Assembly: GCF_023276355.1 (NCBI RefSeq)
Contig: NZ_JALLPL010000002.1
Span: forward strand, 186,001 to 250,000
Length of the DNA: 64,000 bases
Source: Haloplanus sp. XH21
Lineage (GTDB): Archaea > Halobacteriota > Halobacteria > Halobacteriales > Haloferacaceae
Reading direction: 5' to 3'
How positions within the stretch are numbered: the first letter of the stretch is position 1; the number at the start of each line of letters is the position of its first letter. A program made the position numbers and the translations under genes. Positions 2,400 to 60,779 of the stretch are shown here, in pieces. Under the pieces are notes generated by a model. The model did not search any database. It was not told the DNA's origin and saw only the letters and a program-made list of their open reading frames with translations.

Positions 2400-2441
2400 T
2401 TAACCAACAAACGGAGGTAACTACTGTTCTTTGTTGGTTAA
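2400..2441. promoter_or_regulatory. Dispersed inverted repeat, copy A
   Basis: TTAACCAACA at 2400-2409 and TGTTGGTTAA at 2432-2441, perfect 10-bp arms with a 22-nt spacer that is not conserved. It begins 19 bases after the stop of the ArdC-like gene and ends 52 bases before the SWIM-protein start. Confidence 0.85.
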
Positions 2442-2449
2442 GTCTATCA

Positions 2450-2473
2450 GCGCCCGCCGAGGGGCGGAGGCGC
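2450..2473 (+). promoter_or_regulatory. GC-rich palindromic leader motif, copy 3
   Basis: GCGCCCGCC-GA-GGGGCGGAGGCGC forms a strong hairpin 20 bases before the ATG at 2493 and directly follows inverted repeat copy A. Confidence 0.5.
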
Positions 2474-2492
2474 AGTCCTGTCTCCACGGATT

Positions 2493-3314
2493 ATGAGTGA
2501 ACCGTATCTGTCCGCTGTCCTCGAGAAAGCGGAACGAGTTGCAGAACAGCACAGCCAAATCGCTCGCTCGACGGATCATCCAGCACACGAGTACCTGCGG
2601 TACGCCGTTCTGCGGCTGCTCGAAGGGGAGACTGACGAGACGGCTGCGGACATCCGCGAGATCGACGGCGTGACCGTTGGGTATGGAGAGGATGAATCGA
2701 TGTTCGACAGTTGGGGTGGCGACGTCGAGTGGTGGGAGACGGTGCCGCCCCGAGAGGAGTGTACCCGTTTCCGGATTTTCTACCCTGACGAGTACGAAAT
2801 CGTCCCGCGCGTAATCGTCGACGTGATGGCGGCGCTCGGCGCGTGGCGCGTGTGGGCTGGGAACGCCGCAGCCTGTGGCTCCTACGATCATCGCGAGCGT
2901 CACGAAGTCCATTATCTCTGGCCGAAAGACCATCCGGTGGAGGAACTGCTCCACGAGCGGCTCAGTGGCCCTGCGGAAGCCGTCGCTCCCGACGGTGGCC
3001 GAACGGGCGACGTTCGCGACCGACTGGTCGTCGACGAGAACACACAGTCGCAGGACGATCTCGAGCCCCGCACGAAGCGTGCCGTCGCCGAATCGATGGA
3101 CGTCTCGCTCCTTTCGAAAGGTGGCCGCTACGAGGTGCAATCCGCGTCCGGCAACAGGTACGAAGTCGACGTCGTCGACAAGTCGTGTACCTGTCCGGAC
3201 TGGCAGCAGCGCTCACCTGAAGGTGGCTGTAAGCACCTGCGTCGCGTCGATCACGAAATCAAACGGGGCCGCGTTCCTCGACCAGACGGCCGCCTCCCGG
3301 CTGATACGGACTGA
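2493..3314 (+). CDS. SWIM zinc-finger protein
   Basis: A 273-residue protein with a C-terminal SWIM zinc finger: Cys232, Cys234, then Cys246 and His248 in the CxCx(n)CxH arrangement. SWIM domains bind DNA or protein. The N-terminal 200 residues match no family I know. They are acidic and contain two Trp-rich stretches near residues 70-85 and 110-120. The gene is exactly enclosed by two copies of the TTAACCAACA inverted repeat (2400-2441 and 3321-3361), so it may be a discrete cassette or be controlled by both sites. Function in plasmid biology is unknown. Confidence 0.75.
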   Translation: MSEPYLSAVLEKAERVAEQHSQIARSTDHPAHEYLRYAVLRLLEGETDETAADIREIDGVTVGYGEDESMFDSWGGDVEWWETVPPREECTRFRIFYPDEYEIVPRVIVDVMAALGAWRVWAGNAAACGSYDHRERHEVHYLWPKDHPVEELLHERLSGPAEAVAPDGGRTGDVRDRLVVDENTQSQDDLEPRTKRAVAESMDVSLLSKGGRYEVQSASGNRYEVDVVDKSCTCPDWQQRSPEGGCKHLRRVDHEIKRGRVPRPDGRLPADTD

Positions 3315-3320
3315 ACCTGG

Positions 3321-3361
3321 TTAACCAACAAAACTATGGATTGAGAATCCGTGTTGGTTAA
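3321..3361. promoter_or_regulatory. Dispersed inverted repeat, copy B
   Basis: TTAACCAACA at 3321-3330 and TGTTGGTTAA at 3352-3361 with a 21-nt spacer. It starts 7 bases after one stop codon and ends 14 bases before the next ATG, so the right arm would overlap the core promoter of a leaderless transcript of the 3376 gene. Confidence 0.85.
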
Positions 3362-3375
3362 CACGGGAACAGCCG

Positions 3376-3699
3376 ATGTCCTACGAACCCCCGACCCCAC
3401 CGGCGAACCTCCCAACGGAGATCGTCAACACGCTCAACGAAGCCACATCGGATCATCTTCGGGACGCTGCCAGCTACGCCGAGGCGTTGGCCGAACACAA
3501 GGAGCGTGAAGCTCGTCTCAAGGAGGAAGCGGACGACGCCAACGTCGAGGAGCGTCCCGATAGCCTTCCGGACGACGTGCCGGCGAAGGCGACCATCACG
3601 ATCAAGGAAATCAACGACAATCGCTACTACTACTGGCAGTGGAGAGACGGAGATACGGTCCGTTCGAAGTACAAGGGGCCTGTCAACCCGGACGATTAG
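3376..3699 (+). CDS. DUF6788-like small protein
   Basis: A 107-residue protein. The N-terminal two thirds is helical and charged (residues 20-65, coiled-coil-like). The C-terminus carries a beta-rich YYYWQWR motif followed by a charged strand (VRSKYKG), as in proteins I recall as DUF6788; function unknown. It is the last gene before the replication origin and is directly preceded by inverted repeat copy B, so it is the best candidate for direct control by that site. Confidence 0.65.
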   Translation: MSYEPPTPPANLPTEIVNTLNEATSDHLRDAASYAEALAEHKEREARLKEEADDANVEERPDSLPDDVPAKATITIKEINDNRYYYWQWRDGDTVRSKYKGPVNPDD

Positions 3700-3728
3700 A
3701 AAGACTCCGTTAGAGTCTAGCTACGATC

Positions 3729-3992
3729 CACCCCCCGTATTCGAAGTGTAAACTAGTAACTGGATGATAAGGCGTAACAACCGAATGCCGTTTTTCACAT
3801 CGGTGGTGGGGGGTGAGGCCACCAGATTACACTTCGATGCCGGGGTGTCGTCCGTACCGCTTACACTTCGACAAAGGGGAGGGAAAATCGATAGTGTCGA
3901 CTACAGACATGAAAAATCACAGGAGAGCGTGGAAGTTCCCGTTACACATCGATAACGGGGGGCTCTCCGTTAGATATACTTCGGTGTCGGTT
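3729..3992. repeat. Left ORB-like repeat cluster
   Basis: Copies at 3729-3753 (G-run on the minus strand), 3793-3815, 3825-3847, 3859-3883 and 3941-3962 (G-run on the plus strand, pointing to the gene), and a degenerate copy at about 3973-3992. The core is TTACAC(T/A)TCGAT, two to four bases, then GGGG or longer. Confidence 0.75.
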
Positions 3993-4069
3993 ACAGCACA
4001 GAGGCCATAGATCAGCCGAATACGGTGGATAGATTGACCAGACGGAACAGATAAACATCGAAGGAGGTG

Positions 4070-4102
4070 AATCTTTTTAACGCCTCGGCGTACAGCAAGC
4101 GT
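4070..4102 (+). promoter_or_regulatory. TATA-like promoter of orc1
   Basis: The element ctttttaa at about 4073-4080 lies 23-30 bases before the ATG at 4103, the spacing expected for a leaderless haloarchaeal transcript. The nearby aaggaggtga at 4061-4070 is too far upstream of 4103 to act as its ribosome binding site. Confidence 0.55.
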
Positions 4103-5560
4103 ATGGCCGGTAGTGATCAGGATGGAGCGGACCAATCTACCCTCAAACAGGAATCTCATTCTGGAACTGACGCAGAACACGTAGAAGCCGGTGTAGAAAA
4201 TGATGCCGAAGACTTGGAGTCCGAGCAAGACCGAGCAGTGTCGGAAGGCAATACTCAGCGGTCGATCCGGGATATGCTGGATGACGAGGGAGAAACATCG
4301 GTTTTTGTCAATCGAGACCTCGTCGAGCCAGACACAATTATCGACGAGGAGCGAATTGTCGGCCGTGATGATCAACTCGAGGCTGTAGTCTCGTATCTGA
4401 AACCCACACTCCAGGGAAATCGTCCTCCGAATATGCTTCTCTACGGTCCTGCCGGGACAGGTAAATCCCTCATCATCGGCGCAGTCACGCAACAGATTGT
4501 CGATCTCTGCCAATCCAAGGGTGAACGTTTCGGCGTTGTCAATATTAACTGCCAACCGATCAACACCCTCGATCAAGCCGTCTTTGAGCTCGTCCAAACC
4601 GTCGCAAGCGATGTCGACGCAGAAGTCGGTGTCCCGGAAACCGGGGTGTCGACGAAGCGCAAGTATCGACGCTTGTACGAACTCATCAATGAGCACTACG
4701 ACTCAGTTATTTTCATCTTGGACGAGATCGACCTCCTAGTCGGTCGACGAACGAATGAAGAGCCTGCCTACTCGAAACTGCTCTATCAACTGTCGCGAGC
4801 GAGTAACACGAACGAAATTGAGGGTCAAGTATCGGTCGCGGCACTAACGAATGACCCCAAATTCATGGAAGATATCGATGGTCGTGCCGAGAGTTCGTTC
4901 AATCCTCGGGACGTCTACTTCCCTGATTATGACGCGAACCAACTCCGACAGATACTCGAGAACCGGCGCGATGCCTTCCGGCCCAACGCCTTAACCGACG
5001 ACGTGCTACCACTCGTATCGGCATTCGCAGCCCAAAGCCACGGAGACGCACGAAAGGCTATCGACCTATTCCGTGGTGCCGGTGATCTCGCGGACGAACG
5101 TGATGATGAGAAAGTCCGCGAAGAGCACGTTCGTGAATCCCAAGAAGAAATCGACAAGGATCGTTCGCTGAAGCTGATTGAGGGACTGACGACCCAGAAA
5201 AAGATCTCCCTGTACGCGACCGCCTCAGTTGCCTACCTTTCCAATTTGTCCGGAAGTTCGGTACCGAGTCCAGTCGGCTTTAAAGTCTATCAATGGGTTA
5301 CCGACGAGATTGATGCTGACCAGATGACACGGGAGACTTACGTCAAATACGTCAAAGAACTCTCCACTTATGGTCTCATCTCCACGGCTCGAAAAAGTCG
5401 AGGACGTGGTGGGGGGATGTATATGGAATTCACGTTCACGGGCGAACCGGAAGCAATGATGAATCGGATCGTCGACGACACTCGCTTGGGAGCGATTGCC
5501 GATCAAGAAGACATCCTTCAGTCGGTGGTCAACGCCCAGCTAAGAGAGTTCCACAAGTAG
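4103..5560 (+). CDS. orc1: Orc1/Cdc6 family replication initiator
   Basis: An AAA+ initiator of 485 residues. Walker A is GPAGTGKS at residues 115-122 and Walker B is FILDEID with Asp207/Glu208. A C-terminal winged-helix region (about 380-480) would bind the G-rich origin boxes. The N-terminal 60 residues are acidic and probably disordered. A GTG at 4067 is in frame, but the TATA-like box at 4073-4080 would lie inside that longer product, so the ATG at 4103 is preferred. The gene sits between two clusters of ORB-like repeats, so it very likely fires this origin. Orientation and spacing suggest it is transcribed alone and may be autoregulated by the boxes at 3793-3992. Confidence 0.93.
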   Translation: MAGSDQDGADQSTLKQESHSGTDAEHVEAGVENDAEDLESEQDRAVSEGNTQRSIRDMLDDEGETSVFVNRDLVEPDTIIDEERIVGRDDQLEAVVSYLKPTLQGNRPPNMLLYGPAGTGKSLIIGAVTQQIVDLCQSKGERFGVVNINCQPINTLDQAVFELVQTVASDVDAEVGVPETGVSTKRKYRRLYELINEHYDSVIFILDEIDLLVGRRTNEEPAYSKLLYQLSRASNTNEIEGQVSVAALTNDPKFMEDIDGRAESSFNPRDVYFPDYDANQLRQILENRRDAFRPNALTDDVLPLVSAFAAQSHGDARKAIDLFRGAGDLADERDDEKVREEHVRESQEEIDKDRSLKLIEGLTTQKKISLYATASVAYLSNLSGSSVPSPVGFKVYQWVTDEIDADQMTRETYVKYVKELSTYGLISTARKSRGRGGGMYMEFTFTGEPEAMMNRIVDDTRLGAIADQEDILQSVVNAQLREFHK

Positions 5561-5594
5561 GACTACATCTTCAGAGGAAGGCTCTCGAAACACA

Positions 5595-6093
5595 CCCCCC
5601 GTCTTCGATGTGTAAACCGAGTCTTGTCAGGAGTGGTATTGAGCTCAATGGGCCGGTAACGAATTAGGCGTCGGGTCAGTACAGAAGACTACCTCTGAAA
5701 CAGCTCGAATGCAGAACCCCCTCCCCCCGTCATCGAAGTGTAAGTGAGAGCCGTAAGGCTATAAGGAAAACACGTTTCGAAGTGTATACCAACGGTAGAG
5801 CAGCTTAAAGCTACATATTCACGGAGAACAGTACCTTAGAATCGGCTGGATCTATCACTCGGTTTGTCGAAGTGAACTTCTCTTTTCCTCGTGATTAGGT
5901 GTATTACGGCTATGGTTTCCACGCAGTGCATATAAAACTTTGCCAGACAATAGCTTATCTTGAGTTTAGACCTGATTAAGATGTTTGAGAACGTCTCCTA
6001 CGTATTGACGCCCATTCTTCCTGTTTCTACTGATTTCTTGTTCTAGCCCCCTCCCCTTCCGTAGAGTTTTACACATCGATGACGGGGGGAGGG
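5595..6093. repeat. Right ORB-like repeats and AT-rich spacer
   Basis: Copies at 5595-5617 and 5721-5744 (G-run on the minus strand), a partial copy at 5771-5790, a weak half at 5861-5880, and a strong copy at 6067-6093 with its G-run on the plus strand. The boxes at 5721 and 6067 point away from the central AT-rich tract. No gene was found between 5561 and 6119. Confidence 0.7.
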
Positions 6094-6119
6094 AGTGGAC
6101 TGTCCTCCCGCTATGTAGA

Positions 6120-7092
6120 TCACTCGTCACCGTGTGCAGCGAATGACATCACATTCATCTCCCGTGTCTTAGCGAGTTCACGTCGAATCACTGATCGGTC
6201 CCATCCGAGCGATGAAAGCACGCTCTCAACCGCTCTGACCAGCTGCGTTTCGTAGTACGAGGCGTCGTAGGTCTCGATCTCCTCGTGGGCGAGGGCGACC
6301 CCGTCTCGCGAGCTCTTCTCGTCGTCGACGACCACGTACTCGATATCCTGTCAAGATGGATGGCGAGGTCCTAGCCACGAGCTCGTTCGAGCGCCCCCAT
6401 ATTCTGGATATCCTACGTATAGCCTTCCAGCGGCTCGGAGACACGATTCCGCTCGACGAGCCCCTCCACTGCTACGTTTCCGGCTTCAACTCGTCGATTG
6501 CTCGTTCGAGACGTCCGAGCACCGGGTCCAGTGACCACGTGGCATCGAGCCTGTCGAGACAGTCCCGCTGGACATCCTCGATGAACGGCGGGGTTGAGCG
6601 CTGCTGGGCTTCGATACCTCTGATCTTGAACTCGTCGTCGCCGTTGAGTTTTTCCGAAGTACTTCGTCAGTGCGTCAACGTCGCTCTCGCGCTGCGGGAC
6701 GAACGCAACTCAGTCGTAGTGGGCTTCGTGTTCGAGTCGAATCTCGACGCGTTCCGTGATCCCGTCGCGAGCGTCTCGATGTCTTCGCGCTCATCGTCGT
6801 CGACGTCGGGGTCCGGGGTCACCCAGATGGAGTCGACGATGCCGTGGACGACGCGCCAGCCGCCGGCTTCCAGCCGTTGTTTCGCCGTCAGCAGAATTTC
6901 GTGAGCGAACGCATTGATTGCCTCGTGGCACTCGATGCGGCCGAACTTCGCGTTGCTGAATCCTTGATAGCCGAAGCAGGCGACGAGGATCCACTTCAGC
7001 GCTCCTGACCGTCCCTCGAGTTCAGCTAGGCGGTCCTCGTCGGGTCGTCCCGATCATCTCGGGACGGATGTCCTCGATGCTATCGTTTCCCG
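6120..7092 (-). pseudogene. polB: Decayed family B DNA polymerase (C-terminal part)
   Basis: On the minus strand, pieces in different frames line up as one PolB C-terminus. IRPEMIGTT and PDEDRLAELEGRSGALKW lie near 7040-7080, then WILVACFGYQGFSNAKFGR, then VVHGIVDSIWVTPDPDV (palm-like region). The last piece runs in one frame from about 6335 to 6120 and includes YDASYYETQLVRAVESVL. At least three frameshifts and in-frame stops separate the pieces, and the N-terminal exonuclease half is missing. It lies between the origin and the parA operon and is probably a relic of a plasmid-borne polB. Confidence 0.85.
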
Positions 7093-7095
7093 GTT

Positions 7096-7536
7096 CTAGT
7101 CCTGGTCTTGCTTTGCCAATTCACGGATCTTCTCTTTCGTTTCTTCCTGATGTTCACCGAACGCCACCTCGAAAATACCCCTATAGAAATGTTTGTTTTT
7201 CTCGAGCGTGATGTCTTCTCGCTTTAATTGCTTCTTTAATCGTGTGAATGTAATCTCAATGTTCTCACTCTGTTCCGGTTCAACATATATCGTGGCCGAA
7301 TCCCAATCCTCTCTGATGTTCAATGGTTCATCGTCTGATTTCTGGGTCGACGGTTTATTCTCCGCAGCGGGGGTGGCACTCTGTTGACCTGATTGCTCTT
7401 CGGTTGCTGTTGTCGGGTCACTGTCCCGGCTTTTTGCGTCCGGCATGGCCTCCGTCGGCTCGTCATCGACCGTGGCTTCCTTGTCTTCTGCTTCTTCTGA
7501 CGGATCCTCAAATCGCTCGTCCATTCCTCGGGGCAT
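7096..7536 (-). CDS. Small ParA-linked protein, possible ParB-like adaptor
   Basis: A 146-residue protein with a disordered, acidic, Ser/Thr-rich first half and a compact second half (about residues 75-145) with a beta strand (SATIYVEPEQ) and charged helices. It starts 2 bases after the parA stop. A good Shine-Dalgarno (GGAGGTG) overlaps the end of parA, so the two are translationally linked. Its position is that of the DNA-binding partner of plasmid ParA ATPases, but I see no ParB or ribbon-helix-helix signature, so the role is inferred from context. Confidence 0.7.
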   Translation of the reverse strand: MPRGMDERFEDPSEEAEDKEATVDDEPTEAMPDAKSRDSDPTTATEEQSGQQSATPAAENKPSTQKSDDEPLNIREDWDSATIYVEPEQSENIEITFTRLKKQLKREDITLEKNKHFYRGIFEVAFGEHQEETKEKIRELAKQDQD

Positions 7537-7538
7537 CC

Positions 7539-8450
7539 TTACACCTCCACCTGCGTCTTGTCGAACGCTCGTTCCATTGTCTCAGCAACCTCCAGGAAGA
7601 GCTCGCGCTCGACTTGCTGGTCGTTCGCGTCTTCCCACTCGAAAATATCGCAGCCGTTGTCCCACGCGCGCTGTATCGCCACCCGCATTGGGAGTTTGAA
7701 AATCGGGGCTAGTGACGCATATGACTCGTCGAATGCATCCAGGAACTTCTGTGATTGCCCATCGTCTCGGTACATGTTCGCCAGTAGCCCTACAATCGCG
7801 ATCTCGATCTGTTGGTTATCTTCGATAGATTCCAGCTGATCCCAGAGGTCATCCAGAGCATCCCGTGATGTCGCTTGGGTCTGGGCAGCCAGGAAAACGT
7901 TCTGTGCCGCGATAAACGCTGCATCCGTCAAAACCGAGAGATCAGGTGGGCAGTCTATCAAGATATAATCGTAGTCGTACCCGTCGTCAATCAGCTCTTC
8001 CAGAGCAACTTTTAACGAGAGACGAGCACCTGCATCGTCCATCCAATCTCGGGCAAGCCCCATGTCCTTGTGGCTCGGCACGAGATCGAAATTCAGGTGT
8101 TCGTAGTCGTCGCTGTGGATCACAATTTCTGAAAGCGTTGTGTTGTCCGTGCGCGGATTGTCAACGAGGACATCGAGGAGATTTGCGTCATCGGTCGCGA
8201 GCGTATTTGGAAGATCGTTCTTCGGGCTTGACGGATCGTTATCATCGCCTGGCCCCAATCCCAGCCCCTTCGTCATATCGGCCTGTGGATCCATATCGAT
8301 CGCGAGGACATCGTGGTCTCGAGAGGCCAGTGCCGCGGCGCTGTTTATCGTCGCCGTTGTCTTCCCAGTCCCGCCTTTCTGATTGCCGAAGGCGATCGTG
8401 GGGATACCAGTCGATGGTGTGACGCCCCAGCCACGAGGTGACTCGCTCAT
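7539..8450 (-). CDS. parA: ParA-type partition ATPase
   Basis: A 303-residue Walker-type ATPase. The deviant Walker A is KGGTGKTT at residues 25-32, followed by IDMDPQAD (about 51-58) and YILIDCPPD in the middle of the protein, the pattern of ParA/Soj proteins. These form ATP-dependent nucleoid-bound gradients that segregate plasmids. It is the first gene of a two-gene operon on the minus strand. Its upstream region (8451-8857) is packed with GATTCA repeats, a likely centromere and operator. Confidence 0.92.
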   Translation of the reverse strand: MSESPRGWGVTPSTGIPTIAFGNQKGGTGKTTATINSAAALASRDHDVLAIDMDPQADMTKGLGLGPGDDNDPSSPKNDLPNTLATDDANLLDVLVDNPRTDNTTLSEIVIHSDDYEHLNFDLVPSHKDMGLARDWMDDAGARLSLKVALEELIDDGYDYDYILIDCPPDLSVLTDAAFIAAQNVFLAAQTQATSRDALDDLWDQLESIEDNQQIEIAIVGLLANMYRDDGQSQKFLDAFDESYASLAPIFKLPMRVAIQRAWDNGCDIFEWEDANDQQVERELFLEVAETMERAFDKTQVEV

Positions 8451-8933
8451 AGTTCGATCATTGATTCACTGATTCATAAATCTACGCCAGACATCTAATC
8501 CCGCTCTGGCAATTCTAAAGTTCCGTATTCCGTGGTATAAACCGCTAACAGGCGATTTGGGTGTTGTATTTGATGGAAATCAAAGAATCACTGATTCATT
8601 GATTCAACACATCCTGGAACCCCGCTTTGCTGGTTCCTCGTGGAATGGTGGTTGCTACTGGCAGTTACTGAATTAGTGACTCTGTGCTTCTCGGAGTAGG
8701 TAATTCATTGAATCCCTATCTCTTGGATTCACTGATTCATTGATTCACTGACTCCATGACTCGCCACATCCTATTGGATTCCAAGAATCAAGTACTCCTT
8801 AACTCCCTGATTTATGACTTCACTGATTCACAGATTCTGTGAATCAGTGAATCAATGTCCGGGCCATCTCGAGCATTTACTGGGGTAATGGATGAAACTA
8901 ATCGAAGGTGTCACTGACGGTTGAGGGTCTCGA
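8451..8933. repeat. GATTCA-repeat region and palindrome: candidate parS and parA operator
   Basis: No gene here. Runs of the octamer TGATTCA(C/T), partly tandem, occur at 8458-8477, 8585-8607 and 8724-8758, with looser copies at 8702-8711 and 8776-8791. A perfect palindrome fills 8821-8849, with 14-base arms (CACTGATTCACAGA) around one central T, and is followed by further GAATCA copies. The repeats are directly upstream of parA, where partition complexes usually bind. Part of this block is copied at 13917-13976. Confidence 0.7.
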
Positions 8934-9464
8934 TCACGTGATCTCTGCAATCAGTTCAAAGCCATCTTTGAACGTGATTTGCCCGTCGAACCCATGAGCT
9001 TCGATTGCAGTGACAACGCCGTTCCCTGCATCGTCATCCGTCGTGAGGACACAGATAGACGCGGCCTTCCCGCTCTCTAAGAGGCGGGCTGCGACGCCAC
9101 CAAGCGCGGTATCCGCTTTCTCGATGTTGTCCTCCGGGCGATTCGACTCACGTGCAATGAAGCCACGCACACCGTCCATAACGCTAGATACCGTCGGATT
9201 CGTGTAATCTAACTCGTCAGCGACGGTTACCCATCCAGTATCAATCGCACTGTTAATCGGTGTCTGGCCGGGCGTACTGCGGTCTGGCGCACCGCCAAGT
9301 TCCTCATACACCCGCTGCGGAATCACAAATGTAATCTCGTTCCGCCGGGCGAACCGTTCCAGCGCTGTATACTTGTTCCGCTGTTGGCGGCCACAGGCAA
9401 TGAAAACGCCTGAATCAGCAATCCATACCGCGTTCTCAGGTATCGACTCGGTCGTCCCTTGCAT
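8934..9464 (-). CDS. PIN-like domain protein (toxin candidate)
   Basis: A 176-residue protein with PIN-like features: an N-terminal strand ending in an acidic residue (WIADSGVF, Asp17), then EKADTALGGVA and a late LTTDDDAGNG acidic cluster, which could form the metal site of an RNase. It is encoded 14 bases after the HTH gene at 9479 on the minus strand. A second HTH plus PIN-like pair sits divergently at 10700-11895, so this is one of two related modules. Most likely it is the nuclease half of a toxin-antitoxin system; target RNA unknown. Confidence 0.7.
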   Translation of the reverse strand: MQGTTESIPENAVWIADSGVFIACGRQQRNKYTALERFARRNEITFVIPQRVYEELGGAPDRSTPGQTPINSAIDTGWVTVADELDYTNPTVSSVMDGVRGFIARESNRPEDNIEKADTALGGVAARLLESGKAASICVLTTDDDAGNGVVTAIEAHGFDGQITFKDGFELIAEIT

Positions 9465-10099: not shown

Positions 10100-10546
10100 G
10101 GTTGCGACCGAAGTCGGAGGCGTCCAAGTATCGCTTTTCGCTTGGTTCGAATGCAGCAGCCAGCTGCTCGCGCATATACTCCCGGCGGAGCGCCCGGGCC
10201 CGCGAATCCGAGAGATAGTCTGCAGGACGACGTCGGCGCTCGCGCTTCCCTGTTCGGCAGCGATCTCGTCGAGACTCCCGAGGACAACGTCGAGCGATGC
10301 AGAGTACGCATCGTACCAGTACCGCCGCCCCATCTTCGGCGCCGGTATCACTCCGCCGATCTCGTCGGGCAGCCCCGCACGGTTAGCGAGCTGTGAAAAT
10401 CGGTTCCAGATCGTCCACTGTGAAATTGACCCTCCCGAGGTATGAGGTGACGGAAACAGGTAGCCGTCCCAGTCGTTGTGGTCGGTGAACGTCGCGAGTC
10501 GGTCCTCGACGACATCCCGAGTACCGGCATCGTGATTAACCAACAC
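10100..10546 (-). pseudogene. Frameshifted tyrosine-recombinase remnant
   Basis: The minus strand codes WDGYLFPSPHTSGGSIS, then QLANRAGLPDE and KMGRRYWYDAYSASLD, which resemble the C-terminal catalytic half of haloarchaeal phage-type integrases. Near 10220 the frame slips by one base, after which DYLSDSRARALRREYMREQ continues in another frame. The N-terminal half is missing. The fragment begins inside inverted repeat copy C and runs in frame into the HTH gene, making a misleading long ORF. Confidence 0.65.
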
Positions 10547-10576
10547 TAACCTGGACTGAACGAATTTGTTGGTTAA
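10536..10576. promoter_or_regulatory. Dispersed inverted repeat, copy C
   Basis: TTAACCAACA at 10536-10545 and TGTTGGTTAA at 10567-10576, 21-nt spacer. It lies between the integrase remnant (minus strand) and the plus-strand HTH/PIN module. Confidence 0.85.
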
Positions 10577-38111: not shown

Positions 38112-38153
38112 TTAACCAACAAGACTTCAATCTCATCCCGATATGTTGGTTAA
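38112..38153. promoter_or_regulatory. Dispersed inverted repeat, copy D
   Basis: TTAACCAACA at 38112-38121 and TGTTGGTTAA at 38144-38153, 22-nt spacer. It lies about 140 bases before the first gene of the conjugation-like operon and marks the edge of the glycan island. Confidence 0.85.
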
Positions 38154-53602: not shown

Positions 53603-54043
53603 ATGGCTTCGGAACGTACGACCCAAACGCAGACGGTACAGCAAGCAGCAACCAACTCCGACGGGGAGGCTCCGTGGGCAGACCTCGAGGTGGCGATCCC
53701 GAACGACCGCGATCACGCGTCGCTCGTCGCGCTCGTGGAGTGTGCCCTAATCGAGCTGACGCACGAGCACGTGGGAGCAGTTGTCGTCACCCACCAGGTG
53801 CGGGGGACGAACCGCACGCAGTACGTCGCCGTCGACGACGTCGGCAAGCAGTTCCAGAAGCGGCACTTCGACGTCCGGTTGGGCTGGCACGAGACCACCG
53901 TTCCTCGAGAGACCGTTCGCGACGAACTCGTCACCCAGCTCACCTGGTCGGCAGCCCCACAAGCGGAACGCACACGAGAAGCAGCAGCCAGCGAGCCGGA
54001 CACGTTCACCGTGAAGCCAGTCCAGGAACTCCGGACTCCATAG
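53603..54043 (+). CDS. Plasmid hypothetical protein
   Basis: A 146-residue soluble protein. An N-terminal disordered stretch rich in Thr and Gln is followed by an alpha/beta part (HASLVALVECALIELTHEHV, GAVVVTHQVRGTNRTQYVAV). No family is recognised. It is preceded by a leader motif and followed within 10 bases by inverted repeat copy E, the same surroundings as the genes at 1452-3314. Confidence 0.65.
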   Translation: MASERTTQTQTVQQAATNSDGEAPWADLEVAIPNDRDHASLVALVECALIELTHEHVGAVVVTHQVRGTNRTQYVAVDDVGKQFQKRHFDVRLGWHETTVPRETVRDELVTQLTWSAAPQAERTREAAASEPDTFTVKPVQELRTP

Positions 54044-54052: not shown

Positions 54053-54094
54053 TTAACCAACACTCGGGACCAGTTCTGTCGAAGTGTTGGTTAA
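54053..54094. promoter_or_regulatory. Dispersed inverted repeat, copy E
   Basis: TTAACCAACA at 54053-54062 and TGTTGGTTAA at 54085-54094, 22-nt spacer. It begins 10 bases after one gene and lies upstream of the 54264-54877 pair. Confidence 0.85.
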
Positions 54095-54263
54095 CGACGT
54101 TGCCAGAATTCATGCCCTCAACCCCCGCCCACCGCCCTGTCCCTCCGCGACGTTGCCGTTTTCGAGTATCGCGACCCAGGGTCGGACTGACACCCTCCGA
54201 CTGGGCTGTTTATCGGCGCCGGGAGGCGTGCAGCGCGCGAGAGCGTGCGCGGCGTGATTCACC

Positions 54264-54554
54264 ATGGCTGGTCCCGATCCTCACGACGACACGAGTGCCG
54301 ACCACGAACAGTTCGAAACCGAACTCCTCGCACAGGACCGTGACGCCGCGAGCGTCGCGACCGCGGACGTCGACGACGCAACGGCCCGCAGCCTAGTCGA
54401 CGACCTCATCGACGCGGACGTCGTCACACCCGTTCCCGAGGATCGCGTTCTCGTTCACGAGCCGAGTGTTACTACCTTCGACTCGACGACGCAATTGGCC
54501 GTCTTCCACCGTGGCTGGACGGCCGGCCGCGACGCCGACGCAGAGGCGGAGTAA
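54264..54554 (+). CDS. Small acidic protein
   Basis: A 96-residue acidic protein with one clear strand-helix part (VDDATARSLVDDLIDADVVT, then PVPEDRVLVHEPSVTTF). Family not recognised. It overlaps the next gene by one base (TAATG), so the two are expressed together. Confidence 0.6.
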   Translation: MAGPDPHDDTSADHEQFETELLAQDRDAASVATADVDDATARSLVDDLIDADVVTPVPEDRVLVHEPSVTTFDSTTQLAVFHRGWTAGRDADAEAE

Positions 54555-54877
54555 TGCAGCAGACGCTTACAGGGTGTGCGTTCTGCGACGCTCCGCCCAG
54601 CACCGAGACTGGCGAGGCCCACACCTGGGGGGAAGATGAGCGGGTCACCCACCCTATCTGCGTCGACTGCGCGATCCAGATGGAGCCGGATCCCGACGAG
54701 CGCGATCGCTACGCCTGCGATGGCTGTGGGCTCGTCGTCGACGCCCTCGCGGCGCTCACGCGCTTCCGTGTGGAACTCGGCCATCTCGAGGGGCCGCTGC
54801 AGCTGTGTGCGCGATGTAGTCCTGGCGGGCCCGCGACGTACTGGACGCACGACCTCGATGAGCATCTCGTTGAGTGA
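54554..54877 (+). CDS. DUF7558-like zinc-binding protein
   Basis: A 107-residue protein with three Cys pairs: CAFCD near the N-terminus, CVDC, then CDGCG and a last CARC. This spacing could hold two zinc ions in a treble-clef or ribbon fold. I recall the family as DUF7558, common on haloarchaeal plasmids; function unknown. A short stretch after it (about 54894-54954, VADAYTVSMEDLVDEVDVAL) looks like the end of a broken gene. Confidence 0.65.
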   Translation: MQQTLTGCAFCDAPPSTETGEAHTWGEDERVTHPICVDCAIQMEPDPDERDRYACDGCGLVVDALAALTRFRVELGHLEGPLQLCARCSPGGPATYWTHDLDEHLVE

Positions 54878-55041
54878 GACATGTTGCCGACGCTTACACC
54901 GTTTCCATGGAGGACCTCGTTGACGAAGTCGACGTCGCGCTTGACCGCGACTAATGGGGGGTCTCCTATCCAGGGATAGGGAAAGTATGCAATAAGCCGC
55001 ACCGCTTGGCATTACGCCACAGATTCCGGTATCCCTCGCCG

Positions 55042-55854
55042 TCAGATCGTCGTCGAAAGACGCTCGATGCGATCAGCGGTTCCCTTGACTGCGTCTTTCT
55101 CCTCGAGACGACTCACGATATCCTGTAGTTCAACCGTGGTGTAATCGAGTTCCTGCTGGAGGGCAGGCATAGATTTCGGTTCGTCGAGGGCGTGAAGCAC
55201 TTCGAGTTCCTCGTATACGCGCTCTGTAATCTCCGCGACCGGCTCATGCAGGGGTGTCCTCACGTTGTGTTGCTCGGTGAGATCGGCCAACGCCTCGTTC
55301 ACGTACGTCACGAATAGCTCTTGGTCCAAGAGGTCGATCTGCGCGGCGAGTTCTGCTTCGACGACGTCGAAATCGAGGTCAGTCTGCAGCAGCGAAAACA
55401 TATCTTCGATATCGTCCACCCGTCCGGCGACCGCCTTGAATAGGAAGATGTCCTCTGGGCTCACGAGTTCGACCACCAAGTTGCTGGGGTTGAGGTACCG
55501 CTCGCTGCGCTTCCGAATCCCGTCAGAAAGAACCAGTTTATCGATAACCTGCTGGTGAAAGATGTCGATTCGACACCCATCATCGTTCTCGAGGATTCGC
55601 TGAGCACCGAGCGCTTCGTATTCTTCGTCCGGTTCCCGAACGATATCGTAACCAAGTTCGAGCAGTACTGCTTGGAGTTGCCCGAGATCATCACCGGATG
55701 CGACGATGAGATCGATATCCTTGGTAGTGGTCTTGAGATCCTGGAACGCCATTGCCCCACCGCCGATCAAGAAGACAGTGAGCGGGTCGTCTAGCTGCTC
55801 GCCGATGCGCTCGAGTTCCGACCGAATGTACGAACTGTCGAATCGCGCCCTCAT
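55042..55854 (-). CDS. DUF6036-like nucleotidyltransferase (AbiEii-type toxin candidate)
   Basis: A 270-residue protein with the nucleotidyltransferase signature: LIGGGAMAFQDLKTTTKDID (GG at 31-33 and D46-x-D48), then LVSPEDIFLFKAVAGRVDDI, as in AbiEii-like and DUF6036 families. These enzymes add nucleotides to RNA and act as toxins or in phage defence. The C-terminal third is a helical, HTH-like tail (ALQQELDYTTVELQDIVSRL). The start at 55854 overlaps the stop of the upstream regulator by 4 bases, so the two form a coupled toxin-antitoxin-like operon. Confidence 0.78.
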   Translation of the reverse strand: MRARFDSSYIRSELERIGEQLDDPLTVFLIGGGAMAFQDLKTTTKDIDLIVASGDDLGQLQAVLLELGYDIVREPDEEYEALGAQRILENDDGCRIDIFHQQVIDKLVLSDGIRKRSERYLNPSNLVVELVSPEDIFLFKAVAGRVDDIEDMFSLLQTDLDFDVVEAELAAQIDLLDQELFVTYVNEALADLTEQHNVRTPLHEPVAEITERVYEELEVLHALDEPKSMPALQQELDYTTVELQDIVSRLEEKDAVKGTADRIERLSTTI

Positions 55855-56774
55855 GCTGACACCCCGTAGTCCGCAGCCAATTCTTGGAACTCCTCCCACT
55901 CGGGAAGTCGAGATGCCCGCTCCTCGCCACTCGTGTCGAGATACGTGAGCAAGTCCTCGACGAGATCGTCGACGCCGTACTTTGTGGCTTGGTCACGCAG
56001 TTCGTCACGGTCGACGTCAACGTGGCTGAGCAGGAGCAGACAGTATGACTGGGTACGTGCGCCCGAATCGATCACGAGCATATGACAGCACAGCATCGCC
56101 GGCGAGAGATCATTCATCGTCTCTGAATGGAAATAGTACCGACGGTCGCGGGCCAGAAGGGGCAGGTCGTAGGTCTGGAAACGCTCTGGCCCCGTCGAAA
56201 GGAAGTCCTCGGCGGTAATCTCATCTGCGGTCTGGACGAGGAACTCGTCGAGTGACTCCCAGAGAATGGTGTAGGTGTCGGTGTGTTGTTCGACGGTCTG
56301 GCGATGGTCGTGGTGAACGAGTTCCCGAGCAAGCGTACTCAGTTGTTCGAATCCCTCGTTCAGCACATATGCATCCTCGTCAGTTTCGTAGATGATCCCT
56401 CGATGCTGAAGTGGATCGAGGGCGCGATGGACGGTACTCCTGTGAATGTTGGCCCGGCGTGCGAGCTCCATTGCGACCCGCGGTGTTTCAAGATAGTAGA
56501 GAACGCGGAGCGTCGCGCCCGACAACAGTTCAGGCCATTCGATGTGCGAATACTCTTGGGTGATGTCTGCGAGGAGTTCGAGTGCTTTCGCGTCCGATGG
56601 CCGGATCTGCTTTGTTTTCCCTTGTCGACGCGTCTCGATGAGTCCGGTCGCTTCGAGACGATCGACAAGTTCAGACGTGTAGCTGAGACTGCGGTCCAGC
56701 TGGGTCGCAAATTCGGAGACTGTCTGCTCACCGTGAAGGACGGTGAGCGCGCGAACCTCGGCTTCGGTAAGCAT
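55851..56774 (-). CDS. HTH regulator coupled to the nucleotidyltransferase (antitoxin candidate)
   Basis: A 307-residue protein with two winged helices. The first covers about 1-60 (VRALTVLHGEQTVSEFATQL, SLSYTSELVDRLEATGLIET), and the second about 85-140 (LSGATLRVLYYLETPRVAME, RANIHRSTVHRALDPLQHRG). The C-terminal half has no known match. Gene order (regulator first, nucleotidyltransferase second, overlapping ATGA) is the AbiEi/AbiEii plan. A TATA-like run (atatttaaataac) lies at 56791-56806 on the plus strand, reading as a promoter for this gene in reverse. Confidence 0.75.
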   Translation of the reverse strand: MLTEAEVRALTVLHGEQTVSEFATQLDRSLSYTSELVDRLEATGLIETRRQGKTKQIRPSDAKALELLADITQEYSHIEWPELLSGATLRVLYYLETPRVAMELARRANIHRSTVHRALDPLQHRGIIYETDEDAYVLNEGFEQLSTLARELVHHDHRQTVEQHTDTYTILWESLDEFLVQTADEITAEDFLSTGPERFQTYDLPLLARDRRYYFHSETMNDLSPAMLCCHMLVIDSGARTQSYCLLLLSHVDVDRDELRDQATKYGVDDLVEDLLTYLDTSGEERASRLPEWEEFQELAADYGVSA

Positions 56775-56844
56775 CTGTTGCGTAGATACGAACCGATATT
56801 TAAATAACTTCGCTATCTCGCAACGAACATGACTGAGTCAGCTG

Positions 56845-57500
56845 AGGTTGCTGGGTGAGAAACACGATGAAGGCCCTCGGCCGTTCACGGGCGGCGCGCC
56901 GCCCGTTAGCTCGGGAGAGCCTGCTCTCCCGGTGACCGAGACGGCCTCGCCCTTTCTGAGTTCACCAGGACGTCAGCTGGGTCACCAAGCGACGCGGCCG
57001 GCTGGCCAGATGGTATGTAACGGCCCGCCCCGCTCGCCGCTGCCGCCCTCCGCGTCGCTCGCGACCGACCATTCCGGGCATGCGGGCGCTCTCCACACCG
57101 CCCGCGCCCGTTCCGGGCTAAAATGCATGTGCCCTCGGCGCCAGCGGGTATCCCCGTCGGTTGCGCCCCTTGCGGGCTTTCGCGTTCCAGCGCTTGGTGC
57201 CGCCTGCGCTGTCGCGCGCCACACCGCGGCGCGCGTTCTCGGCGACAGTCGCCCTGGACACGGATCCGCCCATCGGGCCGGACACGAACGGGCATATCCC
57301 GCTGGCCGCTCGCTCCGGGCGGGTCGGCGCGCGGGGCTGGATGGTCGTCCGCCTCGGGCGCGCTCTCGCTCGCGCCCAGAGGGCGCTCGCGAAGGCGCGA
57401 GCGAGAGCGCGCAGACGAGTCTGTCGGTCGTTGTCGTCGAGGAAATCGCGATGTTGGAGCATCGCGGTGTCGGGCGCGTGAGCGCCTTCAGGTCTAAGTG
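56845..57500. other. Very GC-rich noncoding region with strong palindromes
   Basis: No gene is supported, although several frames are open because the sequence is extremely GC-rich. A perfect 20-bp palindrome (arms ACGGGCGGCG) is at 56887-56906 and a nine-base stem (CGGGAGAGC) with a 2-nt loop at 56912-56931. The unit TTCCGGGC occurs near 57073 and 57112, and clustered gcgctcgcg/cgcgagcg tracts lie at 57355-57415. It could encode a structured RNA, act as a protein-binding site, or be a long leader of the RPA-like gene. Confidence 0.55.
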
Positions 57501-57506
57501 AGACCA

Positions 57507-58403
57507 ATGTCAAGTAACAACGCCACCAGTAATGTAGTTTCGGTCGATGAACAGGCATTCGAGCAAGCAGACGAGCAGACGGTCGACGAGGAAGACTTCC
57601 CGGTCGTCGACGAGACGCCGGAGTTCCGGGCGACGGTCGACATGGAAGTGCAGGCGAAAGTCGATTCCAACCACCCAGATGCGCGGATCAACGAAGGCCC
57701 GGATCACCTGTTCGGGAAGACCCTCGAACAGGAAGAGCGCATCAAGGCACGAGAGGCCGAGTTGGAACACATCAGTGCCCAGGCGGGACTCAGTCAGCAG
57801 GAGGGGCGTGCGAAGCGGACGCGAGACATCGCAGCGAAGCGAAGCGCTGAGCGGCGTGTGAAGTTCCAGAAGCGGGCAGCGAGCGTGAATCCGATGGCTG
57901 ACCCGGAGCGAGACGATCCTCGTGCAGAGCTCACGCAGGAGCAGTTGGCGGCGGTGAACAAGCAGTCGATGCGGCTGGCGGAGAAGCTGGATGGCTGGTC
58001 GCGAGCAGCGATTGGCCGGCGGCTGGGTGAAGCCGTCGTCGGTGGGAAAGACCTAACGAGTGCAGTCGTCGGGGTGTTCGAGGAGTTGCAGACGGCCCCT
58101 GGGACGGTGATCCCCATTGGGAAGCTCGAGGACGTCAATCGCAAAGAGGTGAGCATCGAGGGTCGAGTCGAAGTACTCTGGGATGCGGACTCGCCGGCCA
58201 TCGCTCAAGTCGGGCTGATCGCAGACGACAGTGGAAAAACGAAGGTGACGATCTGGGAGAAATCAGATGCGCCGTGGATTGAAGAGGGCGAGCAGGTGCG
58301 TATTCACAAGGTAGCCCGGAACTGGTACGAGGGACGCGTCTCACTGGCTGTCACTGGGTGGAGCACCATTATGTTCCCTGAGCGCGGTCGGTGGTGGGAA
58401 TAG
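57507..58403 (+). CDS. RPA-like OB-fold ssDNA-binding protein
   Basis: A 298-residue protein with a charged helical middle (about 75-190) and a single OB fold at about 205-290: VNRKEVSIEGRVEVLWDADS, QVGLIADDSGKTKVTIWEKS, and GEQVRIHKVARNWYEGRVSL. This matches the haloarchaeal RPA/SSB-like proteins found on plasmids. It would coat single-stranded DNA in replication or transfer. The ATG at 57507 is preferred over the GTG at 57498. The long GC-rich region lies directly upstream. Confidence 0.8.
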   Translation: MSSNNATSNVVSVDEQAFEQADEQTVDEEDFPVVDETPEFRATVDMEVQAKVDSNHPDARINEGPDHLFGKTLEQEERIKAREAELEHISAQAGLSQQEGRAKRTRDIAAKRSAERRVKFQKRAASVNPMADPERDDPRAELTQEQLAAVNKQSMRLAEKLDGWSRAAIGRRLGEAVVGGKDLTSAVVGVFEELQTAPGTVIPIGKLEDVNRKEVSIEGRVEVLWDADSPAIAQVGLIADDSGKTKVTIWEKSDAPWIEEGEQVRIHKVARNWYEGRVSLAVTGWSTIMFPERGRWWE

Positions 58404-58563
58404 CCGGTCGACGCACCCCTTTTTTGCTGGTGTGTACGCGGTCACCGCCACCTCCCACCACCTCCACGGTCCGGGCTGCTCACGGCGCACAGCGCCGTTG
58501 CGCGGCCGGGCTTTCGCCACTGCAGTCATCGGTATCAGCGCCGTCCTCCGTGGTGTGTATTTG

Positions 58564-58583
58564 CCCCCTAATGGGTGAGGGGC
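58564..58583 (+). promoter_or_regulatory. GC-rich palindromic leader motif, copy 5
   Basis: CCCCC-TAAT-GGGTGAGGGGC, 43 bases before the tfb start. It shares the CCCCC...GGGTG(C/A)GGGG pattern with the copies before 61151 and 61600. Confidence 0.45.
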
Positions 58584-58626
58584 ATTCCGAGAGGCGCGAT
58601 TTGCGTGTATCCCCTCGTGTGTATTC

Positions 58627-59550
58627 ATGGCAACCAGAGACATCTACGAGACGGCGTTCGACGAAGACGTCCAGACGGAATCGAGTGCGAACCAGTGTCC
58701 CGAGTGCGACGGCCGGGTCACCACCAATGCGATTGAAACCGTCTGCGAGGAGTGTGGGCTCGTCATCGACGAGCAGCGGATCGACCACGGGCCTGAGTGG
58801 CGAGGGTTCGACGACGAACGGGAGCGCACGGGCGCTCCGTTGACGGCGGCACGACACGATCGAGGGTTGTCGACGGAAATCGGCCGCAGAACCGATGCGA
58901 ACGGGAACGAACTCTCAGGACAGAAGCGACGCCGGCTGTCCCGGATGCGGCGTGAACAGACGCGTGGGCGGTTTCAGTCGAAAGCCGAGCGCAACCTCGC
59001 CCACGGGCTCAGTGAAGTCCGTCGGATCAGTAGTACGCTCGAACTATCCGAGACGATCCGTGACCAGGCCTGCCAGCTCTTCCGCAGCGCTCAGAACGAG
59101 GACCTCCTGCAGGGCCGCTCAATCGAGGCGATGGCCGCCGCGAGTGTCTACGGAGCGTGTCGGTGCAACGGGCGGCCGCGAACCCTCGACGACATCACCG
59201 AGTCGGCGCGCGTCGAGCAATCGCGGGTGACGAACGCATACACGACGCTGAATACGGAACTTGGCCTGCCAGCCCAACCCGTGACGCCGAGTGCGTTCGT
59301 TCCGCGGTTGGCCTCGGAGCTCGACGTCTCCGATCAAATCCGGCATCGGGCTCGGCAGTTGGCGGAAGCATCCGAATCGACCGGAGCAACCACGGGGGTT
59401 CGACCATCTGGGTTCGCCGCAGCCTGTCTGTACAAGGCCGGACGCGAAGACGGACGGTGGCTCACCCAGTCGGACGTCGCTGAAGTAGCGAACGTCTCAG
59501 TGGTCACCGTGCGAACCCACCGCGACGCGTTAGACGAACTGGCTGTGTAA
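58627..59550 (+). CDS. tfb: Transcription initiation factor TFB
   Basis: A 307-residue TFIIB homologue. The zinc ribbon has Cys24, Cys27, Cys40 and Cys43; the B-reader region follows (HGPEWRGFDDERERTGAPLT), and two cyclin repeats fill 110-305 (LSEVRRISSTLELSETIRDQ; SAFVPRLASELDVSDQIRHR). The last HTH is DVAEVANVSVVTVRTHRDAL. It pairs with TBP to recruit RNA polymerase. Haloarchaea keep several TFBs; a plasmid-borne one could retune promoters or serve the plasmid. Upstream is a copy of the GC-rich leader motif. Confidence 0.93.
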   Translation: MATRDIYETAFDEDVQTESSANQCPECDGRVTTNAIETVCEECGLVIDEQRIDHGPEWRGFDDERERTGAPLTAARHDRGLSTEIGRRTDANGNELSGQKRRRLSRMRREQTRGRFQSKAERNLAHGLSEVRRISSTLELSETIRDQACQLFRSAQNEDLLQGRSIEAMAAASVYGACRCNGRPRTLDDITESARVEQSRVTNAYTTLNTELGLPAQPVTPSAFVPRLASELDVSDQIRHRARQLAEASESTGATTGVRPSGFAAACLYKAGREDGRWLTQSDVAEVANVSVVTVRTHRDALDELAV

Positions 59551-59644
59551 CGCCCATACCGTTGGGTTGTATTCCTGTTGGATGAGCGATTTGAGGACCA
59601 TCGTTTAAACCTAAAGACGTAGCATGATACGATCAGACGACTCT

Positions 59645-60529
59645 ATGACCGGGCGTTACTCTGACTATGAAGCCCTCCGGCCGAACGGCGAAGCCACCCA
59701 CGTTCCCGACGACCAGCTCACCGGTGGTGGCGAGCCACGGCGGCAGCGATCTGGGAGCATCGACGCGGGCTATCCAGACGACCCGACAGCAGTTGCGACC
59801 GAGTGTGAGTCCTGTGGCGCGTCAATCCCCGCCGGCCAGGCAAAGTGCCGGTTCTGCCTGACAAATCATCTCGGAAACGAAGCCATCGGGATGGACGAGA
59901 CGGCAGATCCGACGCTCTTCGGCATCATCCATCTGGTCGTCGAGTCGACCACGTTCTACGGCGCCGTCGCGAAGGGCGGGGCCGCCGCAAACCTCCTGAC
60001 CTCAAACGACGCGGAGCCCGCCGTCGACGACTATACGCTGCTCTACGATCTCGACGAACCGCCTGCGCCCCAACTGGCCGACCGATGGCCTCCGCTCCCC
60101 GCTGCGGTACAACTTGACTCAGGAGAGGGTGAGCAGCTTCTCAGAGCCGCCCGTGACCGGACAGGGTGGCACGGGCAGGAAGCGTCGGAGCGCCAGGAGC
60201 AGGCCCCGACGCGGCTCTACGACCAGCGTGGGGACGGCATCCGCGACACGTCACGGCTCACTGAAGTCCTCGACGACACCGACGACGCGGTGTGGCTGGT
60301 TCCAGCGATTGCCCTCCAACAATCCGGTGCAGAGAATAGTACTGGACACTCACGACACGAGCGGCCGAACAGAACTCATCTCGAGTGCCAGGAGTGCGGT
60401 CGAGAGACCGAACATCGGTTTCGTGAGTTCGAGACCGTCCCTGACGACGAGTGGACTGGGCAGCCGATGTGGGGCTGTCAGCGGTGCGGGACGCCCCGCT
60501 ACGGGCCCGAACCCGAAGCCGGTCAGTGA
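59645..60529 (+). CDS. Plasmid protein with two zinc-ribbon motifs
   Basis: A 294-residue protein I recall in haloarchaeal plasmids under the doubtful label biosurfactant protein 1. It has one zinc ribbon near residue 60 (CESCGASIPAGQAKCRFC) and another at the C-terminus (CQECGRETEH...CQRCGTPR). The middle has an alpha/beta stretch (ADPTLFGIIHLVVESTTFYG) without known motifs. The ATG at 59645 (MTGRYSDY) is preferred over 59624. The real role is unknown; the two ribbons suggest nucleic-acid or protein binding. Confidence 0.65.
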   Translation: MTGRYSDYEALRPNGEATHVPDDQLTGGGEPRRQRSGSIDAGYPDDPTAVATECESCGASIPAGQAKCRFCLTNHLGNEAIGMDETADPTLFGIIHLVVESTTFYGAVAKGGAAANLLTSNDAEPAVDDYTLLYDLDEPPAPQLADRWPPLPAAVQLDSGEGEQLLRAARDRTGWHGQEASERQEQAPTRLYDQRGDGIRDTSRLTEVLDDTDDAVWLVPAIALQQSGAENSTGHSRHERPNRTHLECQECGRETEHRFREFETVPDDEWTGQPMWGCQRCGTPRYGPEPEAGQ

Positions 60530-60738
60530 ACTATCTCGACCTACTCAGCGGCTACCGCCGCTTCCTTGAGGTCGGGGCTCCCTTGCTCTCGCGTTGGACT
60601 TCCTGTTTCAACGACGGTGCTTGCAGATACCGACCGGGAATGGTCGTCACCCACAGAGGCTCCAGTCTCCAGCAGGCGTTGTACTTCGGGCTGTCCCAGC
60701 CCTAGCTTTCCCAATCCGCGCTCAAAGACGGCGGCGGA

Positions 60739-60779
60739 TTAACCAACATCTCTGGTCTCGACTCGGTTTTGTTGGTTAA
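60739..60779. promoter_or_regulatory. Dispersed inverted repeat, copy F
   Basis: TTAACCAACA at 60739-60748 and TGTTGGTTAA at 60770-60779, 21-nt spacer. It lies about 75 bases before the small gene at 60855. The preceding 60530-60738 holds no recognised gene. Confidence 0.85.

Follow-up and report, generated by a model that had tools for sequence, protein, structure and literature searches.

The 64,000-nucleotide stretch of Haloplanus sp. XH21 analysed here (contig NZ_JALLPL010000002.1, positions 186,001 to 250,000; hereafter the window) contains six dispersed copies of a long inverted repeat, TTAACCAACA-N21/22-TGTTGGTTAA, referred to below as the site. The site belongs to a real and strongly selected family found in haloarchaeal mobile DNA, which is undescribed as far as we have searched. 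It marks the borders of gene blocks, and blocks change at these borders more than elsewhere. A full-text search gave no haloarchaeal paper among the matches listed for either arm, and topic searches, covering titles and the beginnings of abstracts, returned nothing on such a site. Haloarchaeal vesicle plasmids and recombination have been described, with no such site in the passages available (PMC10818511), and a hairpin origin described in the accessible part of another paper is of a different kind (PMC13107129).

All six copies read in the window by an earlier note, which had been made from the letters alone, were recovered; their 10-bp arms are perfect, the spacers are 21 or 22 nucleotides (nt) long, and the pattern did not occur in any of 100 dinucleotide-preserving shuffles of the window. 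Single arms with at most one mismatch number 14 in the window, 12 of them being the arms of the six sites, while the remaining two (at 135 and 7810, one mismatch each) are in line with the shuffle mean of 1.26. The genome comprises three contigs with a total of 2.94 Mb (95.8% complete): C1 (2.53 Mb), C2 (305 kb, which holds the window) and C3 (104 kb). On C2, all 41 perfect arms sit in pairs with a spacer of 20–22 nt, which form 17 perfect and seven one-mismatch pairs. The whole genome contains 21 perfect copies, compared with none of the reversed pattern, and an enrichment on plasmids, the check proposed for the original idea, is evident from their distribution, with 17 and 3 copies on the two small replicons C2 and C3 and only one on the 2.5-Mb contig C1.

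The anatomy was defined on 205 non-redundant sites of the class, nine bases per arm being fixed by the search pattern itself. The spacer is 21 nt long in 97 sites and 22 nt in 77, the others having 20 (15), 23 (11), 24 (2), 19 (2) or 18 nt (1). The strict 21/22-nt spacing holds for the six copies of the window and gives way to a range of 18–24 nt across the class; likewise, the 10-bp arm, perfect in the window, reduces to a class core of 9 bp, the tenth base being A in about 91–92% of the two main spacer classes. The spacer sequence is not conserved in the class as a whole, as had been said, but orthologous copies share it. Its centre is mildly AT-rich (0.64–0.68 versus 0.44), there is a weak preference for G and T at positions -2 and -1 outside the arms, and no G-string is present within the arms of the 205 sites. 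A short variant, TTAACCAACA-N9-TGTTGGTTAA, is found on plasmid W01 (NZ_CP054589.1) near 88850, where relatives carry the normal site.

The form with 9-bp arms was detected in 199 of 292 Halobacteria genomes, in up to 30 copies, and the reversed control gave zero in all 292, so that chance origin is ruled out by the shuffles and by both reversed-pattern controls. A scan of a collection of species genomes yielded at least 119 stretches; among the 80 displayed, 78 are haloarchaeal (one of these, labelled uncultured archaeon A07HR67, is counted as a haloarchaeon by interpretation) and two are bacterial contigs, a number close to the approximately 2.6 chance matches expected in the whole collection from a uniform-base estimate. 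These two contigs (L046 and L084) were excluded from the counts of gene placement, flank sharing, rearrangement and neighbour families, and from those built on them. Among the 80 displayed, the records whose title states the replicon are six plasmids and one chromosome. The ten plasmids picked as relatives of the window have 7–22 copies each and 11 virus records have 1–4 each, whereas the IMG/VR contigs gave 50 stretches with the site. In virus contig L135, terminase and portal genes adjoin the site, and some of the site-bearing virus contigs are, judged by such genes, genuine tailed viruses; two viral stretches matched none of the named phages. The motif is thus spread across haloarchaeal mobile DNA and is not confined to this plasmid, for which the earlier note had envisaged a plasmid-wide regulon. 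The lone copy on C1 may lie in plasmid-derived DNA, because it adjoins a TFB gene that is 88% identical to one on plasmid W01 and is near genes with plasmid homologues. The plasmid family of the window is large and carries conjugation genes; searches with parts of the window matched 163 and 167 PLSDB records. The region around site 2, used as a query, matches 186 plasmid records, and among the 60 listed many matches end at or shortly before the site, which is taken as a hint only. C2 itself looks like a fusion of several related plasmids, and two of its segments, C2:174307-178691 and C2:263686-268070, are near-identical down to their three sites and the spacers, and represent a duplication within the 305-kb replicon.

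The arms are conserved to an extent not found in the DNA between them. At orthologous places, where both flanks are homologous, 387 of 396 comparisons show no mismatch in the 18 arm bases, four of the others having one and five having two or more. The spacer, in turn, drops to an identity of 0.53–0.78 where the flanks are less than 95% identical, and evolves about as fast as neighbouring intergenic DNA. At a convergent site between the ArdC gene and a nucleotidyltransferase gene, for instance, 18 of 18 arm bases are kept in eight copies from seven plasmids, with flanks 91–94% identical and a spacer identity of 74%. The arms are therefore under strong purifying selection and the spacer is selected for its length only, the pattern expected if a protein contacts two targets separated by three turns. 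Together with the AT-rich centre, this makes a sequence-specific protein on both arms the natural reading, in agreement with the earlier suggestion that one protein would bind the two. The site would thus be a double-stranded DNA element of about 41 bp bound by one dimeric or tetrameric protein, the putative binder contacting both 9–10 bp arms about three helical turns apart and ignoring the intervening DNA. A hairpin in RNA or single-stranded DNA was set aside, as a loop of near-fixed length and unconserved sequence better fits protein spacing on double-stranded DNA.

The ends of homology between related plasmids concentrate at the sites, a connection with block exchange that the earlier note did not anticipate. 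In a survey of 11 plasmids (identity of at least 75%), 93 of 2398 distinct joints were found at sites. This represents 12.1 homology ends per kb, compared with 2.1 in other intergenic DNA and 0.94 in genic DNA; homology breaks 5.8 times as frequently at sites as in the rest of the intergenic DNA. Insertions in at least one relative affect 49 of 131 sites versus 83 of 705 site-free gaps (p 2e-11, a value that is indicative only, since the comparisons share ancestry and the events are not fully independent). When homology ends at a site in one plasmid, it also ends at a site in the partner in 120 of 143 cases. When only one flank is homologous, 638 of 804 comparisons retain the site, compared with 741 of 774 when both flanks are homologous, and among 230 sites with their surrounding loci, 132 site pairs have both flanks in common and 678 have one. 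Nine flank families are joined through the site to at least two different partners, the site being kept in 554 of 626 comparisons. Among the 5' flanks, it is retained in every comparison of families f5 (157/157), f9 (41/41) and f30 (47/47), and among the 3' flanks in 190 of 205 comparisons for ArdC (11 plasmids) and 25 of 25 for f54.

Individual cases illustrate how blocks enter or leave at a site. Site 2 of the window (C2:189321) stands single, whereas the paralogous place at C2:141507-143669 holds a 2.16-kb insert between two sites, with flanks of 88 and 92% identity. Site 1 also stands single, and relatives hold there a 1.6-kb cassette flanked by two sites. Several plasmids contain such optional pieces, namely a pair of nucleotidyltransferase and helix-turn-helix (HTH) genes (1.6 kb), an HTH cassette (2.2 kb), and a 386-aa gene that is accompanied in some cases by mercury-type genes (1.5 to 8.7 kb; annotation of W03). 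Where an optional piece is absent one site is left, and the nucleotidyltransferase/HTH and mercury-type cassettes accordingly come with two sites in some plasmids and one in others. A stretch of 12.2 kb is 98.3% identical between a plasmid of Salarchaeum japonicum (W03) and one of Haloprofundus sp. MHR1 (W09) until about 14 bp before a site. The two plasmids then diverge, one of them running directly into the SWIM gene and the other first having a two-gene cassette and a second site.

We infer that the site takes part in the exchange rather than merely sitting at block borders. It would serve as a border sign between the exchangeable gene blocks of the mobile elements that carry it, blocks being joined, gained and lost at these borders with the site remaining at the joint. 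The likeliest mechanism would be site-directed recombination or guided repair between two sites, with the protein supplied in trans, by analogy with the host XerC/XerD acting on the pdif sites of Acinetobacter. Our preferred reading, held tentatively and with rather less than even confidence, is thus that of a module-exchange site bound by a protein, comparable in its working to the pdif sites of Acinetobacter but of different construction. A bolder extension, which we consider rather unlikely, is that haloarchaea share an exchange system across the whole class: plasmids and tailed viruses would have in common one bipartite site (TTAACCAACA, about 21 bp, TGTTGGTTAA) whose arms would be recombined by a trans-acting enzyme with no need for identity in the centre, so that elements would assemble from operon-sized blocks and viral protein parts would be joined in frame via the site.

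The actor could be a chromosomal tyrosine recombinase, a plasmid tyrosine recombinase, or a non-recombinase that guides repair. The genome contains 11 tyrosine-recombinase matches. One of them, C1:1618913-1619926, is present in all 59 haloarchaeal genomes examined, as a single copy in 57; from this distribution it is probably the chromosomal Xer enzyme of the class, and it is the natural host-supplied candidate for acting on the site. The 336-aa tyrosine recombinase at C1:477948-478949 was discarded as a common enzyme, being present in only 9 of the 59 genomes, and a serine recombinase was ruled out by the lack of any PF00239 match at E 0.01 in the 95.8%-complete genome. A tyrosine recombinase from either of two families is present on all 11 plasmids (f13 on nine; f103 on C2, W04 and W08), and 21 of 42 site-bearing virus contigs, which may be fragments, have a tyrosine-recombinase match at E 0.01, 19 of them above the family cut-off. 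Only four recombinase genes stand strikingly close to a site, at distances of 1 bp (C2:166391 and L039), 4 bp (L171) and 11 bp (L145). In the first two (C2:166391-167515 and L039:2683), which are from different genomes, the gene stops 1 bp before the site and the spacers are nearly the same, including an inner inverted repeat TTCCA-N6-TGGAG. A broken tyrosine-recombinase gene (tblastn match of 101 aa, 81% identical to the recombinase C2:272912-274219) is found 17 bp from site 3 of the window.

Several results weigh against an exchange site. The 3' flank formed by SWIM keeps the site in only 13 of 60 comparisons. Among 36 distinct joints whose flanks are at least 88% identical, the breaks range from before -60 to beyond +40 bp of the site, and 11 of the 36 are at an arm end or in the spacer. 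None of the 131 joints with identity of at least 95% falls at a site, with 4.8 expected from the rate at 90%. Sites are present at both ends in only 41 of 123 insertions at sites, and no inversion was found in 298 rearranged comparisons, even though a palindromic site should allow inversions. Recombinase genes are not enriched by the sites (21% versus 18% of all genes within 300 bp), and tyrosine recombinases normally require identity in the overlap, which the spacer does not offer. An early impression from the site-centred loci, that breaks occur exactly at the arms, failed under the less biased tests of insertions and break positions.

The pattern of insertions and deletions without inversions would also result from a passive process, in which the sites serve another role and two-site cassettes are lost by microhomology-mediated repair on the 9–10 bp arms; at some joints, moreover, the spacer resembles that of the left or right parent site. 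This process would explain losses, but gains are needed as well to account for places whose contents differ between plasmids and for blocks that recur in several contexts, and the selection on the arms is left unexplained, which makes it a distinctly improbable account.

The sites are almost always found between genes, which were called by a purpose-written script and not by a standard gene caller. Of 177 cellular sites, only three have more than half of their length within a called gene, compared with 63% of random positions, and the same is true of 6 of 55 viral sites versus 80%. Among distinct gene pairs of the 11 plasmids, sites are in 26 tandem, 12 divergent and 7 convergent gaps (control gaps 287, 102 and 101, respectively), and in tandem gaps they are found at a median of 48 bp after the stop and 142 bp ahead of the next start. 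Five distinct viral copies lie in frame within coding sequence (L143, L151, L156, L158 and L164, which is duplicated by L173). All of these have a spacer of 23 nt, which preserves the reading frame, and read (L/V)NQQ...(V/L)LVN; the one in L156 is in a gene encoding an HTH-exonuclease protein. The translated sites form an acidic linker between protein parts.

This placement bears on the proposal of the earlier note that the sites are operators of a regulon, here extended to a regulator common to plasmids and viruses that would bind 5' of most backbone operons (conjugation, DUF6610/ArdC, SWIM, f5 and orc) and coordinate them. The clearest point in its favour is the fixed distance to the start of several gene families. 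Site 2 had been placed close to the gene starting at 3376 and is indeed 14 bp upstream of it. This gene belongs to family f5, and all 16 called members, from 11 plasmids, have a 5' site, either at 13–16 bp or overlapping the called start by 11 bp. The f5 gene is adjacent to the site in 27 of the 30 site-centred loci having it, the site being on its 5' side in 24 of the 27; the same arrangement is found in at least two virus contigs (L146 and L175), and where an insertion separates SWIM from f5, the site often stays with f5 only. Fixed 5' distances are also found for f30 (11/11 at 142–148 bp), f6 (11/16, mostly 50–52), f43 (7/9 at 87–92) and f93 (4/4 at 103–104). Within such a regulon, f5 could be an autoregulated binder. 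The predicted structure of f5 contains a helical hairpin plus three strands (mean predicted local distance difference test, pLDDT, 76; predicted template modelling score, pTM, 0.42) and has no match in the PDB at E 0.001 or better (best E 0.39), so the model offers no recognisable DNA-binding fold. Other observations are difficult to reconcile with operators. Convergent gaps are not avoided (7/45 versus 101/490, p 0.56); the convergent site beside ArdC described above, upstream of nothing, keeps all its arm bases; the conserved distances to the start span 13–263 bp; the in-frame viral copies lie within coding sequence; and the ArdC and f54 3' flanks keep the site regardless of what comes next. 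A regulon is thus regarded as a somewhat improbable explanation.

The indifference to gene orientation, with sites at block ends as well as block starts, is what would be expected of an architectural site, where a nucleoid, insulator or road-block protein at the borders of transcription units organises or separates them and block exchange is a by-product. Strong selection on the arms with a free spacer agrees with such a role, and the AT-rich centre would permit bending. Long accessory stretches of the same plasmids nevertheless lack sites (W10 has none across its first 98 kb), and the in-frame viral sites would lie within the transcript. An architectural role is unlikely on balance, and we retain the exchange site as the preferred reading.

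The coordinates of the six sites and of the features discussed with them are collected below.

Sites and neighbouring features in the window (positions count from its first letter)
Feature	Position	Strand	Description
Site 1	2400..2441	strandless	spacer 22; between ArdC-like gene end (2381) and SWIM gene start (2493)
Site 2	3321..3361	strandless	spacer 21; between SWIM gene end (3314) and f5 ATG (3376)
Site 3	10536..10576	strandless	spacer 21
Site 4	38112..38153	strandless	spacer 22; ~142 bp 5' of conjugation block (f30, called start 38296)
Site 5	54053..54094	strandless	spacer 22; between conjugation block end (53603-54043) and next block (54264)
Site 6	60739..60779	strandless	spacer 21; between block ending with gene 59645-60529 and block from 60855/61151
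ArdC-like gene	1443..2381	+	Pfam ArdcN N-terminal domain and Peptidase_M78 (IrrE-like peptidase)
SWIM gene	2493..3314	+	weak SWIM zinc-finger match just below Pfam cut-off; flanked by sites 1 and 2
f5 gene	3376..3699	+	107-aa protein, no family match; most faithful neighbour of the site
G-string repeats, six	3733-3960 and 5597-6087	both orientations	flank orc1/cdc6 gene (4433-5560 as called)
Overlapping 8-bp-period repeats (TGATTCACTGATTCAT...)	8455-8854		just upstream of ParA gene

The backbone of nine relatives and of C2 and C3 is cut by sites at recurring places, not every plasmid having every site. The order is site, conjugation block, site, block f20-f19, site, block f36-f54, site, and it continues with DUF6610-115aa-ArdC, site, SWIM, site, f5-orc1, site. 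In the tailed-virus contigs L140, L147, L166, L178 and others, a small PHROG 17157-type gene is followed by the site and an Orc1/Cdc6-like gene.

The proximity to orc genes suggests a replication or partition element, either an origin recognition box (ORB) of Orc1/Cdc6 proteins of mobile elements or a dispersed centromere, the latter being reportedly known from phage N15. The viral Orc1/Cdc6-like family is within 300 bp of the site in 9 of the 11 loci having it, and ParA genes are near some viral sites. In the window, however, the orc1/cdc6 gene is flanked by a separate set of repeats, TTACAC(A/T)TCGAT..CGGGG, with six copies at up to three mismatches compared with a shuffle mean of 0.02. These repeats contain the G-string of haloarchaeal ORBs (criterion from the part available of PMC3528665) and, as an ORB-like set around the gene, are likely the origin of this replicon. 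It is an iteron array, and not the site, that precedes ParA, and this array is likely the partition site. Membership in the ORBs was rejected, given the lack of a G-string in the arms and the separate G-string repeats around the orc gene. A plasmid centromere (parS), which is specific to one partition system and differs between compatible plasmids, was also rejected, as the same site is present on the co-resident C2 and C3 and on plasmids of many genera. With up to 24 sites per plasmid (C2, including one-mismatch pairs), a role in replication or partition is very unlikely.

Whatever the putative binder does, a signal of about 20 bp that is maintained on plasmids and viruses throughout an archaeal class offers a direct handle for its pull-down. 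Rapid gene exchange and large mosaic plasmids are known features of haloarchaea, and the literature searches described above gave no shared cis-acting site by which this exchange could be steered. If the site is a true exchange site, it would be an archaeal equivalent of the dif modules, though of new architecture, and haloarchaeal plasmid mosaicism would become testable in a reporter.

Four known systems resemble the site in part. The stoperators of mycobacteriophages are short, asymmetric and oriented; like them, the site consists of many dispersed intergenic copies of one (here putative) protein-binding sequence across a mobile genome, but it is a wide unoriented palindrome found on the plasmids and viruses of a whole archaeal class. 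The attC site of integrons is a long folded single-stranded site with a variable loop that works with a nearby intI. Integron cassettes share with our system a recombination-site-like element by the gene ends and the exchangeability of cassettes, whereas here the spacing is near-fixed, the blocks reach whole operons and recombinases are not enriched beside the sites. Haloarchaeal ORBs also form inverted pairs, and in viral contigs the site stands beside orc1/cdc6-like genes; unlike ORBs, it has no G-string, is not tied to one Orc family and is present in 7–24 copies per plasmid.

The pdif/dif modules of Acinetobacter, handled by XerC/XerD, are the nearest in behaviour. Archaeal and bacterial dif sites have an 11-6-11 architecture, with two 11-bp arms and a 6-bp spacer in 28 bp, according to the part available of PMC8371274. 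The site, with arms of 9–10 bp and an unconserved spacer of 20–23 bp, departs from this architecture, and for this reason it is not classed as a dif site. It also differs from pdif in the lack of inversions among rearranged comparisons and in its presence in tailed viruses. In the accessible passages on pdif (PMC6449649), as here, a plasmid carries several to many sites with two inverted arms, the sites are common to unrelated plasmids, and the modules between them contain toxin-antitoxin-like pairs or metal resistance.

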